Origin: Nereocystis luetkeana
Taxonomy: Eukaryota; Sar; Phaeophyceae; Laminariales; Laminariaceae
Assembly: GCA_031213475.1 (NCBI GenBank)
Contig: JARUPZ010000002.1
Coordinates: forward strand, 10,340,628-10,404,627
Reading direction: 5' to 3'
Length of the DNA: 64,000 nt
Shown here piece after piece: positions 781 through 62,540 of this stretch. The position numbers were made by a program, and so were the translations under genes. The notes beneath the pieces are model-generated. The model saw only the letters and a list, made by a program, of their open reading frames with translations. It was not told the DNA's origin and did not search any database. The stretch's first letter is position 1. The number at the start of each line of letters is the position of its first letter.

Positions 781-1789
781 TACGTGTCCCCGTCGCAGTT
801 ACGTTGTTTTCGTGAGCTGGGCTATATGGCGGTCCAAGGTTAACAGAGTACACCTACATATAACACCCAACCTACGCCTCTTTACGTACAACAATGTAAA
901 TACTTCAAATTTCAAAAATTCGAAATGCCAACTTATCAAAATATCAAAACATCAACACATCAAAATATAAAAAAAAAATCAAAAAAACATCCGAATATCA
1001 AAACATCAAAATGTCAAAATAATAAGATCATGAACAGGTTTCTCTCGCTATGTACATACGTAGATACCCCCGCTGGTAAATATTTGAAACTTTTGTCAAA
1101 CAACTACCAGGTACTACTTGAAACAACCGCTATGTGCGCTGGTGGGATAAAATACACTGATGATCAACTTTTATTGGGTAAAAAAAAAAAGAAAAGGAAA
1201 ATATCATTAGAGATCGGGAACCGATATTACAATAATATGCAGTTTGTTATTGTAGAGAGAATTAGGCGTTATGGTTCACATTATTTGGCTGAGTACGTAT
1301 CAGTAGTACGTAGCTTACCTCGACAGCAGCAGCGGGCACTCTTTGGTTGATCGCGCTTGTGGGACTACCAAGTGGATACTGCACGGAAAGGTGCTGGCAG
1401 ACTGGCACTTGTAGAACACGCAAACAGACAGGGCCCGTGGCTTGCACCTGGACAGCGGTCGCTCGCTGGGCCAGGTGTTCGTGATTTCTTGATCAGGTAT
1501 TTCGTGAATTCTGATTCAACATCGGATGTGGACAAAAAATGGTGGTTTTCGGTCTGACGGCGAGGAGATCGGTCCGGCTTCTTGTGCCCGGCTCCGCCCT
1601 GGGGAACATCAGCAGAGGGGCTCTTCTTGTTTTTCGGTGACCGCGCATGTTCGCAACTCGCTTCTCCCGTACTACTCCGGTATATTTCTATTGCATGGGG
1701 GAGCATCGTATGGCATGGTCATCAGAACCAGCGATGGGCCCCCAAAAAAGCAGGTATCCCTCCTATGAATACTGTATTTACTATATATA

Positions 1790-1894
1790 TTACGGGGGAC
1801 CATAGTTAATAGGACCTACGGTACACACAAAAACCTATATATTTCGCTATTTTTGCTAGCAATATTTGGTCCTCTTAACTATGGTCCCCCGTAA
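1790..1894 (+). mobile_element. Family A MITE (mixed subfamily)
   Basis: The arms carry the TTAAT form but the spacer (TATATATTTCGCTATTTTTG) is that of the AAAT subfamily, so this copy looks recombinant or intermediate. Confidence 0.85.
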
Positions 1895-2344
1895 TAGTAT
1901 GTGTCCCCCCTGTTGGTCGTACGCGTACCCAGATGCTTGCTTTCCACTCACTGCTTGCTGCGTTTGCGTATGCGGTACGTACTCAGTCTACTGTAGTGCC
2001 GCGGTATAGGTGACAAATGAAAAACGAACAAACAAAACAAACAATTACGTACCGATTACTGTGTTGACCGTCTGCAACAGTGAGGCCATCGTACCTATCT
2101 ATTACGACCATCTGTGTAGTTGCACGGAATAGAAAAATGGCGCTCTCGGGGTGGGATTCGTGTGTCACCGCTTTCGCCGCTTGGCTTGTACGTACGAGTC
2201 GCCGGAGACAAACATTTTTTTTTTATTTATTTTTGTCAAATTTACTAATACGAGCATACGTACAAAACGTACGCCAGCTGAGAGTCCGACCAATGATATG
2301 GGTTGACCCCGAAGCCTTGAAAGCTGCGTTTCGTCGAACAGTTA

Positions 2345-2449
2345 TTACGGGGGGCCATAGTTAATAGGACCTATGGTACACATAAAAACATATATATTCA
2401 ATCATTTTTAATGACGCTATTTGGTCCTATTAACTATGGTCCCCCGTAA
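2345..2449 (+). mobile_element. Family A MITE (TTAAT subfamily)
   Basis: Arms TTACGGGGGGCCATAG and CTATGGTCCCCCGTAA, with TTAATAGGACC pairing to GGTCCTATTAA. Confidence 0.87.
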
Positions 2450-2482
2450 TAGTGGTTCGAAAGTGACGGCACTGTAATACGG

Positions 2483-58535: not shown

Positions 58536-59032
58536 ACGGTGCCGGAGTTGGGTTGAGGGTAGGAGTTTGGGTGTGGTTTTTTTTATTATTGTCGATCGCG
58601 GTGGAACCCTCTTTTGATGCCATGTACACAGAAATGATACTACCACGAGTGTTTTTTATTTGTTTTCGCTGTGGGCTGGGGCGGGCTATTTATTAATAGT
58701 AGCTCGGGTTTTGGCCGGGCGGGGGGCGGAGGGAACGGGATTTTTTGTGTGGCAGGCAGCGTGATTGGCCGGATGCTTCTTTTCATCTAGCGGGGGGCGA
58801 GAGGGGGGGGGGGGGGGGGGATGTGGGGGCAATGCATCTGCGTCCGGGAAGTCACCCCGGCTGCGCTGCGCTTTGCGGTGGTGGTTTTGGGGCTGGCGTA
58901 CTTCTCCTGCGTACCACTACTGTAGTCAGGTATGTTGAGGTCGTGGTGGTTAGGGTGGGTGCTTCCTGAGGGGGAAGGGTTCTGGTGTGATGTCATCCCT
59001 CCCGCCTGGACAAATGGCTTGAGAAGTCGTCA

Positions 59033-59720
59033 CGGCAGTAGTACAGTACCGCACCATTCCGTGCTTTGGGCAGGACGTACTGCTGCGCTGCGAGGCGCTG
59101 GGGTCCCCAGTGAATTGGGTTTCGTAGCGTGCTGTAAAGTACTGGGGCGTGCCCAGTATTTCAGGCTGTGCCAGTATTTCAGGCTTCTTGCAGTACCCTA
59201 CATTTCTGGCGCTGGTGTACTCTGAGGCAGGTACTGATACTGGCGACGTGTGCTGGGTATATATTAACACTGGCAGCATTATTAAGACTGGTATCATGCT
59301 ATTGTCCTACACTGTACTACGATAGGTATACACCTGTAGCTATTTGATACCTGGTAGGTCTTCACAGCAGTACTGTACTAGCAGTAGTCCACCAGTACAT
59401 TATTTTGGGCATGACGTACTGCTGCGGGATGCTGAGGCGTACCCAGTAATTCGGGCACGATAGCGTGCGCTGACGTACAGTACTGGGGCGTATTCGATGT
59501 TTCGGGCATACCGTAGCGCTGGCGTAGCCTGAGGTACTGATACTGGCGACGTATACGGGTATATGCTGGCAGTATTTTAGGCATGGCGTACCGTCAGGTT
59601 TTGGGCAGGAACCCTGTAATTTAGGCTTTGCGTCGTCTGAGGTGCGGGTGTACACTGATGTGCTGGCACTGACGACGTGTACTGGGCATACTGGCGACGC
59701 ACACTGGGTATACTGGCAAT
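59033..59720 (+). repeat. Degenerate tandem repeat rich in CAGTATTTCGGGC
   Basis: GTACTGGGGCGTGCCCAGTA, CCAGTATTTCAGGC, GGTACTGATACTGGCGACGT and relatives recur in the same order at least three times with heavy divergence. Confidence 0.6.
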
Positions 59721-61741
59721 ATATTGTAACGGCTTTGGATTGTCCGAATAGTTGATGAGAAGTGCCCCCCCCTCTACGCCTCTGTTCTCCCCCCCCCCCC
59801 GGCTCCTGCGGGCTGCCCTGAGCAAAAAATGGAAGAATCTTGTACGGGGGTATACGAAGAAGAATGCCTGTAATACGTAGTACCAGTGCAGTGGTACGAG
59901 TACATTCAGCTTTTCGGTGTTGCTCCCCCCCCCCCCGACCCTCTCCTCCCTGCTTTTGCATTCACGCGGTCTTCTTCTTGTACAGCGAAGTACCAGGCAG
60001 TGCGTACGTAGGTAGGTGGCGGTTGTAGTAGTAGTGGTGGTGGTGGTGGTGGTGGCACTGCCTTGGGTCCTCGCTGGCTCCCGTCGTGATTCGAATGCAC
60101 ATGGCGACGGCAGGAGGAAAGGGCGGAGCGGTGGGTATGTATGTAGGGGGTTTGGAGAGGACGGAGGAAGTGGCGGTGGGGCGGTGGGGCGGTGGGGCGG
60201 TGGCGGCAGCGGCGGCGGCGATTGGGTAGGGAATATTCCCCCCGTCATGGTGCGAGTGCACACGACGATGGTAGAGAGGCGGTGTGTAGGTAGGGGTGGG
60301 GGGAAGACGGTAGTGGTGGTGGTGGTGGTGGTGGTGGTGGTGGCGGCGGTGGCGGTGGCAGGGGCGATCAGGCAGGGCAGGAAAAAATACGTATTCGAGG
60401 CGCCTGCTCCTTATACAGATGGCGGGGGGGGGGGGGGGGGGGGGGGGGGGGGCAGGAGCAGGGCAGGAGCCCTTGAGGTACATGCCGTTCTTGAGGGGCC
60501 GTGGTGTGAAGTCGGCCTTGGGGAGATTCTGGTGTGATTGGATGCCAGTCGGCGGGAAGTCGTTGAGAGTAGATTTTTTGTGGAAGGAGATGAGGCATGT
60601 TTAGCGTTGGGGCTTCGGTTTAGTTTAGTGCTGATAAATTTGATCGGCCCCCTTTTTCCTGTCGTGCTGTTTTGTTTTTGTTTTTTTGCATTTTTTAGTC
60701 AATAGTAACGGAGAAATATGCTGACCGGTGCTGTCTTTTGTTGCTGTTGTTGCACTTTGTAATGATTGACGAATTCCAGATAAAAGAACGTTTTCCCCCG
60801 GGTACTCCCCGAAATGTAGTTTGCTGCGGACCGATCCCGAAAGACGCTTCGGCGATCCCGCGTTGTTACTGTTTGCTGCAACTTCGGAAGCTCCGGTAGG
60901 CCCATCGAACAGCAGTGGTGTAAGCGATCCCCGAACGTTTTATTTTCGGCAACCCCACAGGCTTTATGTTGGCCGCGACCCCGGTGACGTCTTATCGACG
61001 ACCGCGCGTTCAGTCGACCCCCGGTGATGATGATGATGATGATGATACTCCGCCGGCTCCTGTTATCGTAGTAGGTGATAGTACTGTGGCCCGGTCCCGG
61101 AGGACGCATCTCCGGCGATCCCACGATAATTATGCCGCGATCCCCGACGACGGCGTTCCGGCAATCCCACGACTAGCGATACGGAGATGCGGCGGTCCAC
61201 GGTAGCGCCGACCATCATGGGGATGATGATGATGATGGTGGTGGTGATGGTAGTGATCCCAGGCAAGTGATGGTGTTGCTCCAGCGATCCCCTTTCAATT
61301 ACTCCTCGCTTCGTACGGAGGTTTTTTGTCGCGCTGTAAAGACTTGAAACCGCAGTCGTCCAAAAAAAGTGTGTCGTCGAAGTTGGGTGTGACCGGCCTT
61401 CTCTTGGTTAATTTGATGGCGCCTTTTCTCGTTGTTCGCAGAAAGCACAGTGCTGCTGCTGCTCCGCTCTTGTACGACCTGTGGTCCTTCCTTCCTGCAT
61501 TTTCCGTGCCCTCTCGGTTTTGGCCTGCTATTATCGCCTGACCTGACGCTTCTTCACGGCAAAAATCCCCTTCTTTACACGGCGGTGATGAGGTTGCCGG
61601 TGGTGTTTCCCCGCGACGCTGGAGTCTCCCTCTCCCGTTTTGGTATGCTCCTGGTACTCGAAACTCGAACGAACGGGGCCTTTGTCTTTGCAGTGCATTC
61701 CGTCGACTAAAATTTAGTAGTACTTACTACTGTGGTGGAAG

Positions 61742-61860
61742 TAGTAGTAGTAGTAGTAGTAGTAGTAGTAGGAGTAGTAGCAGTAGTAGTAGTAGTAGTA
61801 GTAGTAGTAGTAGTAGTAGTAGTAGGAGCAGCAGCAGCAGCAGTAGTAGTAGTAGTACGA
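61742..61860 (+). repeat. (TAG)n/(CAG)n microsatellite
   Basis: Mostly TAG with a short CAG block near 61830. Confidence 0.9.
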
Positions 61861-62540
61861 CGACGGTGAGAAGCTGTCAACAGGTCTCTAAACCAGTACG
61901 AGTACGACGCCTACAAGCAGCGCAGCAACTCCAGCTACGTTGGAGGATGCGACCTTAGCAGCTCCGCAGGGAAGTAGACGGTGTTCTGCATGCAGCAGCA
62001 GCAGCCGCGGAGAAACTCACAGCAGCAGGTCTTCTGTGCTGTACGTACGAGTCCGTGCGTGCGAGTGGCACCTCGGAACCCAGGCGTGTTGTACTGTAGT
62101 ACACCTGGTACAGTGACATAATGCTAGCAAAACGGGTCATCCTAAACCTATCTACCTGGTAGTATTGAGCACGGGGTGGTCGCCGGTAGCCCACTACGGC
62201 GGTGCGTGGCAGATTCCTCGGGGTGTAGTACTCGTGGTAGTCTGCCGCGGTAATAATGCATGTCCCCGCGCCCCACCGCCTCTTCCATGTGAACTCCCGC
62301 TGCTGAGGAGGCTCGCGCGCGGGTTCTGGCTGGAGGGGGACGAGGAATTCCCTTGCTTTGGCGATCTGCTGCCACCTCCGGCACCGCCCCCGCCGGCTGC
62401 TGCTACTGCTGCTGCTGCTGTGAGCACCTCCCTCCGCTGGTTAGGCTGGTCGGTTGTGTTGTTACCGACAGCCACGCGCGCGGCTGTTTATGTACGTACA
62501 GTATGTGGTGGTGGGCATTGTTTGTTCGAAGTTGATTCGG

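Follow-up and report, generated by a model that had tools for sequence, protein, structure and literature searches.

TACCWGGTA in the Nereocystis luetkeana genome: a short insertion at TA and probable transposon footprint

In the 465-Mb genome of Nereocystis luetkeana, the nine-base word TACCWGGTA has 182,395 occurrences and a reversed control word 1,744, so that the genome-wide count of TACCWGGTA is far from background. As a whole, the observations are best explained if the word is what remains when the excision site of a TA-specific cut-and-paste DNA transposon has been repaired, a reading to which we assign a probability of about 0.8. It is the variants of the scar, the preference for particular flanks of the TA and the tandem scars that lead to this interpretation.

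Abundance in the window and the genome

The window, by which we mean the whole stretch of 64,000 nucleotides analyzed here, holds 35 exact copies of the word (17 with A and 18 with T in the center), which places it among the most frequent nine-base words of the window, simple repeats aside. In 100 dinucleotide shuffles of the window the mean was 0.46 copies and the maximum 4, and none of the 100 reached 35. A chance origin is thus rejected, and the preliminary description was right to place the word far above an expectation of about 0.5 per window. Its count of 35 copies also stands, as do 34 of its 35 coordinates; the copy that it gave as 55873 starts at 55874.

Scars recognized by the exact word lie at 1105-1113, 2824-2832, 3229-3237, 4204-4212, 5561-5569, 6015-6023, 7842-7850, 18754-18762, 22002-22010, 27043-27051, 27527-27535, 28749-28757, 34084-34092, 34278-34286, 37646-37654, 39374-39382, 40298-40306, 40783-40791, 52010-52018, 52800-52808, 53596-53604, 55271-55279, 55874-55882, 56214-56222, 57311-57319, 59348-59356 and 62153-62161. 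Another exact word, at 12266-12274, abuts a copy of the short repeat MITE A (12273-12382) with a TA common to both, and one at 39696-39704 adjoins the MITE A copy 39707-39818. The near variants listed earlier were found again: the 6-nt scar TACCAGGGTA at 22356-22365 and at 56832, the 6-nt scar TACCCTGGTA, which is CCAGGG when read from the opposite strand, at 23961-23970, and TACCCGGTA at 42524. A variant with G in the center, TACCGGGTA, lies at 34177-34185. TACCWGGTA is absent from the sole long ORF of the window with a Pfam domain (29709-32699, Zn_clus), which carries little weight because of the word's density. Since a scar in a coding exon would shift the frame by 7 bp, genes may have paid heavily for these insertions.

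Elsewhere in the genome, 18 of 20 sampled 10-kb stretches contain the word. This distribution argues against a sequencing or assembly artefact (one assembly was examined), as do the flank preference, the exact TA duplication, the tandem arrays and the variant spectrum described below, and we regard such an origin as extremely improbable. An apparently enriched second scar class, TACTCSGAGTA, was rejected, as in the sample it derived from one minisatellite (L018).

Empty and filled sites in MITE A

MITE A bears out the proposal that the word acts as an insertion of 7 bp at TA: both in the window and in the genome, some copies read TA-CCWGG-TA where paralogous copies have an empty site and read TA. 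In an alignment of 18 copies, inserts of at least 5 bp, tallied by eye, comprise four TA-CCWGG(G)-TA in three copies and one A/GA-rich run. The scar TACCTGGTA at 48809-48817 is a clean 7-bp insertion relative to the other copies and occupies a particular TA, hereafter the hotspot. The MITE A copy 43482-43606 carries two 7-bp insertions, TACCAGGTA at 43504-43512, where others have a TA, and a second scar at the hotspot TA (43538-43546). The 6-nt scar at 56832-56841 is a clean 8-bp insertion in a further copy. The copies at 53051-53162 and 24850-24961 are free of scars in the alignment and provide the empty-site reference.

We also joined the flanks of 100 scars and near variants and searched with the product. 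Matches spanned the join in 13 cases, six of which show a bare TA; all six are in MITE A, and two of them have an extra gap of one or two bases nearby. The empty sites are all paralogous, and the clear ones are confined to this one repeat family. In a second repeat, family B, one TA was probed for the scar with 0 matches, a count that comes without a denominator.

Genome-wide, the exact context of the hotspot was found filled 357 times and empty 3,321 times. This TA is filled in 9.7% of MITE A copies that have the exact context, compared with 0.7% of TAs overall. The scars might have spread as passengers of a transposing MITE subfamily, which would account for so high a proportion of scarred exact-context copies at one TA and for an excess of T centers. 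However, only 7 of 84 scars within 264 kb are in or beside MITE A. Moreover, among 60 copies, 20 each with T, with A and without a scar (mean divergence 12-17%), filled copies are about as diverged from one another as from empty ones, and the 40 filled copies form no clade; spread with the MITE is rejected as the origin and is barely credible in our judgement. Nearest neighbors share the filled or empty state no more often than in shuffles (p = 0.93; n = 60). Given this lack of sequence clustering, the insertions at the hotspot look mutually independent in the 60 copies sampled. The three-way label is shared by nearest neighbors in 8.8 of 60 cases versus 19.3 of 60 in shuffles, for which we have no explanation.

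Target preference, tandem scars and variants

Read outward, the scar flanks show a pyrimidine at position 1, T at positions 3 and 6, and A or T at position 7, symmetrically on both sides. Positions 6 and 7 both differ from control TA sites with p = 0.0005, which is the floor for 2,000 draws; the controls were 1,292 of 3,276 TA sites, from which low-complexity sites had been dropped, and the scars were unfiltered. The same tendency is seen in a set of 196 flanks. The target preferred around the TA is palindromic and AT-rich, and the TA is duplicated on insertion.

Scars that share a TA in tandem occur 15,917 times in the genome, compared with 2 for the control, and are 6.3 times as frequent as expected under random use of TAs. 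The window contains TA-CCTGG-TA-CCTGG-TA at 35113-35128, TA-CCCGG-TA-CCTGG-TA at 42524-42539 (beginning with the variant noted above) and a probable tandem with an altered middle TA, TA-CCAGG-CA-CCAGG-TA, at 36344-36359. Tandem pairs prefer equal centers (40 of 59 places by hand count, p = 0.006).

A near-palindromic word with symmetric flanks reaching 7 bases outward, and with a core less variable than the outer bases, might be expected of a selected or anciently conserved protein-binding motif. The greater variability of the outer TA bases is unexplained. A binding motif as the origin of the word is, however, contradicted by the bare-TA paralogues, which are contrary to conservation at fixed positions, and 182,395 copies and tandem arrays with a common TA also speak against it. 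We consider this origin very improbable, but some scars may have been used secondarily as binding sites.

The scars at a single TA are heterogeneous, as excision footprints are. Hotspot matches that do not continue with T read CCAGGG in 12 of 18 cases (two of the 12 being CCAGGGG) and CCTGGG in none of the 18, and other scars at the same TA read TGG, CTGG and others. Among the 100 genome-wide matches listed for 6-nt scars, the ratio of CCAGGG to CCTGGG is 93:7 (hand count). Within 264 kb, TACCAGGGTA occurs 10 times (expected 0.9), TACCATGGTA is found at one site (2 over both strands; expected 0.6) and TACCTGGGTA is absent. These variants also bear on the idea of a 5-bp insert that spreads into TA independently, with no larger parent. 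Such an insert would agree with the absence of a parent element in the sequence searched. However, scars of variable length at one TA (CCAGGG, CCAGGGG, CTGG, TGG) are expected of end repair, and a mostly A-centered 6-nt class is unlike the copying of a fixed 5-mer; we therefore think it improbable.

Returning to the transposon footprint, the preliminary description had explained W as the mismatch between overhangs of 3 nt. Its general proposal of an excision footprint agrees with the TA duplication, the AT-leaning symmetric targets and the variant scars at one TA, but the 3-nt detail finds no support. A 3-nt overhang is disfavored because it predicts CCATGG as a filled-in variant, and the 6-nt class is mostly A-centered. 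Since the 6-nt scar is CCAGGG and rarely CCTGGG, the ends of the parent element probably read CCAGG...CCTGG, and a 5-nt 3' overhang CCAGG would fit the variant classes better.

The most likely course of events would be as follows. An element with ends 5'-CCAGG...CCTGG-3' would enter a TA and duplicate it. On excision, the transposase would leave a few bases of the element tip on each flank as a 3' overhang, most simply the 5 nt CCAGG, and the two overhangs would pair as C:G, C:G, A against A, G:C and G:C. End joining would seal the break, and resolution of the A:A mismatch to A or T would give TA-CCWGG-TA. Pairing slipped by one G would yield CCAGGG, a lack of overhang pairing CCAGGGG, and trimming of the overhangs the shorter scars. 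Re-insertion beside old scars would create the tandems, and over time the process could have left about 180,000 scars. Two features run counter to random repair of the mismatch, which predicts neither an excess of T at the hotspot center (65 T and 35 A among the 100 matches listed, hand count) nor tandems of equal centers.

The parent element and known systems

The preliminary description had also envisaged a TA-flanked transposon with terminal inverted repeats (TIRs) starting with CCW. None turned up in the window, in a 277-kb sample, among the hotspot matches or at 8 of 28 DDE_1 loci. In the window, a search for TA-CCNGG ends with matching inner TIRs gave nothing above the same-orientation control, and in the 277-kb sample the sequence following TACCWGG shows no common element end. 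Hotspot sites were seen empty and scarred in paralogues, with no element-bearing copy among the matches. No element body was recognized in the 41 non-canonical hotspot matches, of which only about 16 further bases each are visible. Two odd matches that were possible elements (L031 and L032) were fetched and proved not to be MITE copies at those places and to hold no element; a few matches that continue ambiguously, such as C6:13308821, lay outside this check. The DDE_1 domain (PF03184) has 28 matches in the genome; the 8 loci examined have no CCWGG ends alongside that would link them to the scar, and the wider flanks of two show no element. PF13358 (DDE_3) gave 0 matches with 30 candidates scored, and PF01359 gave 0 matches that are uninformative, as its controls were equally silent. 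In viral contigs the tandem word is found at nine loci, eight with the tandem only and one (L002) with one extra copy; MITE A has no match in viral contigs, and family B matches one contig, which is without scars.

Failure to find the element in the sequence searched, the TA boundaries and the likeness to the internal eliminated sequences of Paramecium would also suit programmed DNA elimination, in which the assembled nuclei have lost TA-bounded elements everywhere and retained the scars. The TA-sharing tandems are better accounted for by successive rounds of insertion and excision, and we hold programmed elimination to be very unlikely. For the transposon itself, it is only a tentative and rather doubtful proposition that a TA-specific element with a 5-nt stagger, beyond the described Tc1/mariner range, was excised at least 180,000 times while keeping its own copy number at or close to zero. 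If true, it would be a mobile element present as footprints only, which highly efficient, perhaps even programmed, excision would have removed from the chromosomes. Cleavage at TA with a stagger of 5 nt would itself broaden the chemistry known for TA-specific transposases.

To our knowledge, most work on excision footprints has used reporter assays that yield small numbers of them. A single genome here supplies about 180,000 of the same kind, and one position of a host repeat is empty in thousands of copies and filled in hundreds, so that target choice, end-joining outcomes and mutation at DNA ends can be read directly from sequence. The finding suggests that a cut-and-paste element may evade repeat annotation that seeks elements rather than scars. 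A literature search for either 9-mer form as a whole word found neither, and titles and abstract openings on genome-wide footprints contained nothing comparable, which is no proof of absence. In the text searched of an Ectocarpus transposable-element paper (PMC12477816), neither "footprint" nor "excision" is present.

Several known systems share features with the scar. HIP1 and other abundant genomic palindromes are, like TACCWGGTA, short words that recur extremely densely, but TACCWGGTA is an insertion with empty sites, which HIP1, as far as we know, is not. The internal eliminated sequences of Paramecium are TA-bounded and derived from Tc1/mariner elements. Ciliate sequences of this type resemble the process proposed here in TA-bounded excision at very many sites, whereas in Paramecium repair is precise, to a single TA. 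The overhang of Sleeping Beauty is self-complementary with a central A/T mismatch and leaves the footprint TAC(A/T)GTA, and one end of Mos1 starts with CCAGG.

Papers on Tc1/mariner elements describe a preference for palindromic AT-rich targets (PMC7913693, PMC5481204) and footprints of 2-4 bp (PMC7913693); for Tc1-like elements, the end-joined footprint is described as the 3' overhang, with a stagger of 3 nt (PMC7827188). Sleeping Beauty and Tc1-like elements are like the scar in the TA target, the TA duplication and the palindromic AT-rich preference, but 5 nt rather than 2-4 bp separate the two TAs here. Mos1 and Hsmar2 also target TA, and for Hsmar2 variable non-canonical footprints with microhomology are described (PMC3770610), a variability shared with the scar; they differ in their 3-nt stagger, and PF01359 has no match here in a search with silent controls. 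The putative overhang resembles that of Sleeping Beauty, a 3' overhang with a central mismatch, but would be longer, 5 nt instead of 3 nt. Unlike Sleeping Beauty, the candidate transposon is known from its scars alone, about 1.8 x 10^5 of them.

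Abundance and sequence context of the scars

The window contains 35 exact copies of TACCWGGTA, here called a scar, with A as the centre base in 17 and T in 18. The preliminary description had arrived at the same count, although one of its start coordinates was wrong by 1, and the excess over chance that it had claimed was borne out: shuffled windows contained 0.46 copies on average and never reached 35. The whole-genome count, which it had named as a check, is 182,395, far over the 1,744 copies of a control word (the scar word reversed) in the same single assembly of 465,085,209 bp and 1,987 contigs, where the window lies at G000:C2:10340628-10404627 (G000, the assembly; C2, its contig). 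The size of the genome and its repeats suggest a eukaryote. Twenty additional stretches of 10 kb, picked by round coordinates, held 49 copies, two of the stretches being without any. The window and these stretches (264 kb) thus contain 84 scars vs 2.8 expected.

Both sides of each of the 35 scars were read outward and compared with 1,292 of the 3,276 TA sites of the window, low-complexity sites having been dropped from these controls while the scars were left unfiltered. The scars prefer T at position 6 and A/T at position 7 (each p = 0.0005, the lowest value that 2,000 draws allow), T at position 3 (p = 0.005) and a pyrimidine at position 1 (p = 0.011). The flanks of 98 scars in a larger sample tend the same way. 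Passages of two papers describe a preference of Tc1-like elements for palindromic AT repeats around TA (PMC7913693; PMC5481204).

Some scars lie in MITE A, a short inverted-repeat element of ~109 nt with ends TTACGGGGGACC and TA at most ends, which has many copies in the window (674-785, 1788-1899, 2343-2454, 24850-24961, 53051-53162 and others) and 38 segments in the 264 kb. A MITE-like family B of ~60 nt has ends CAGTCCCGTTTTGGGGACA (5788-5847, 26182-26241, 40881-40940 and others); one scar probe for it found no match anywhere in the genome. The window also holds several inverted repeats of 185-267 nt, ~90% alike, around 8.2-10.2 kb (8182-10171), and, on the minus strand, a 997-aa open frame (29709-32699) that contains a Zn2Cys6 cluster domain of the fungal type (PF00172, 4e-06) and long homopolymer stretches.

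Insertion at TA, apparent independence and age

TACCWGGTA is an insertion at TA, and the clear empty sites are all paralogous, from one repeat family. The 7-bp insertion proposed earlier is supported by other MITE A copies, which carry a bare TA at scarred positions. For 100 scars and near variants, the two flanks were fused with one TA between them and compared with the 264 kb, up to four matches being listed per scar. Matches spanned the join in 13 cases, and in six of these, all MITE A, other copies have a bare TA (window 43504, 43538, 48809 and 56832; L016:6350 and L026:6298, loci outside the window, with an extra gap of 1-2 bases nearby). The remaining seven match less well (75-84%), with TA at the join at L011:5266, L012:8154, L014:3816 and L024:3875 and no TA there at L011:5721, L012:782 and L025:8865. 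Among 18 aligned MITE A copies, read by eye, every insertion of at least 5 bp is TA-CCWGG(G)-TA (four, spread over three copies) apart from a single A/GA-rich run. Genome-wide, one TA of MITE A in the exact context GTTAAATATATA|GGTTTTTATG, the hotspot, lacks the insert in 3,321 copies (empty) and has it in 357 (filled), i.e. 9.7% filling vs ~0.7% of all TAs, the genome TA total being extrapolated from a sample.

The insertions look independent of one another. From these 3,678 copies, 60 were taken from the list heads (20 CCTGG-filled, 20 CCAGG-filled, 20 empty) and compared with the insert omitted. There is no sign that scars were carried along by one MITE lineage, because neither distances nor neighbour states show clustering of the filled copies in this sample: mean distances are 0.12-0.17 for every pairing, no pair differs by 1% or less, nearest neighbours have the filled or empty state in common in 26.2/60 cases vs 32.8 shuffled (p = 0.93), and the three-way label (T-filled, A-filled, empty) in 8.8/60 vs 19.3, below chance. 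Only 7 of the 84 scars in the 264 kb lie within or adjoin MITE A.

Judged by their sequence, the scars seem far more recent than the MITE copies that carry them, since five of 64 in the hotspot list (59 whole and five with a one-base change, read by eye) are altered, roughly 1% per site, vs 12-17% divergence among the MITE copies. Across the larger sample, variation is higher at the outer TA bases (52 single-change words vs 28.9 expected) than in the core (33 vs 26.8).

Variant and tandem scars

Among the matches listed, the centre base is T in 65 of 100 filled hotspot sites (hand count). A base other than G follows the hotspot TA at 1,562 sites. Among the 100 listed, 59 start with complete (CCWGGTA)n units, one unit in 50 cases (37 T, 13 A) and several in nine; the other 41 include simple substitutions, unrelated stretches, and short or unusual inserts (TGG, CTGG and CTCCGGAG, for example). 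Non-canonical continuations numbered 18 and 23 in two more hotspot searches. The former include CCAGGG or CCAGGGG 12 times and CCTGGG never; nine of the latter are 7-bp scars in which TG has replaced the second TA, followed by GGTTTTT, and the rest are mixed, two not being MITE copies. Genome-wide, TACCWGGGTA has 13,000 matches vs 771 for its control, and A is the centre base in 93 of 100 among the matches listed (hand count). An array carrying this 6-nt scar (G000 C1:1305185-1308353) accounts for seven of them, as TACCAGGGTA at exact 528-bp spacing, with one more at 1304145.

Inserts of another kind, TA-CTCCGGAG-TA and TA-CTCGGAG-TA, occur in two hotspot copies (G000 C1:19194157 and C2:15840938). 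TACGAGTA (TA-CGAG-TA), possibly another footprint class, is at 4.5x expectation in samples of 264 kb and 297 kb. A short tandem repeat of ~43 bp with TACCWGGGG (window 3291-3425) apparently has no relation to the scars.

The tandem scar TACCWGGTACCWGGTA occurs 15,917 times genome-wide vs 2 for its control and ~2,500 expected under random TA use, and triple scars are also present. At 59 distinct places among the matches listed, the centres are AA in 23, TT in 17, AT in 14 and TA in 5 (hand count), which departs from independence (p = 0.006); some pairs with identical centres may have arisen by tandem duplication rather than by a second insertion.

Possible parent element and proposed mechanism

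The parent would be a transposon with ends CCAGG...CCTGG. In a first, non-exhaustive round of searches, 277 kb showed no element end common to different sites after TACCWGG. The continuations that recur (L014:3219 and L017:3457; L017:2120 and L025:3777; L019:1025 and 1056) also have a common left flank and are therefore repeats containing the word. No TA-flanked terminal inverted repeat with CCAGG was found at eight of the 28 DDE_1 matches, where the stretches inspected spanned 3.3-3.6 kb per match and were widened to 10 kb at two, a DDE_3 profile search had no match among 30 candidates scored, and a PF01359 search had none, its controls being equally silent. The parent may be scarce or extinct, may reside elsewhere, or may belong to another superfamily. 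Five DDE_1 matches of equal score with three internal TAG each (G000 C2:7920664, C809, C872, C1099, C1378) are probably a repeated element.

Sleeping Beauty, according to a passage of PMC7827188, is cut three bases inside the element, so that the donor retains 3' overhangs of 3 nt, and the footprint corresponds to this overhang. The preliminary description had likewise proposed 3-nt overhangs. An overhang CCA would fill in to CCATGG, which the counts do not support in detail: TACCATGGTA occurs at one site in the 264 kb vs ten occurrences of TACCAGGGTA and none of TACCTGGGTA. From the scars we infer a 5-nt overhang instead: CCAGG would be self-complementary apart from a central A:A mismatch, and CCWGG would result. 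Slippage by one base would retain the A and add a G, giving CCAGGG on one strand or CCCTGG on the other rather than CCTGGG, in agreement with the scars seen. Among known systems, Sleeping Beauty leaves the footprint TAC(A/T)GTA and Mos1 has the end CCAGG, with HIP1 and the IES of ciliates as further systems for comparison.
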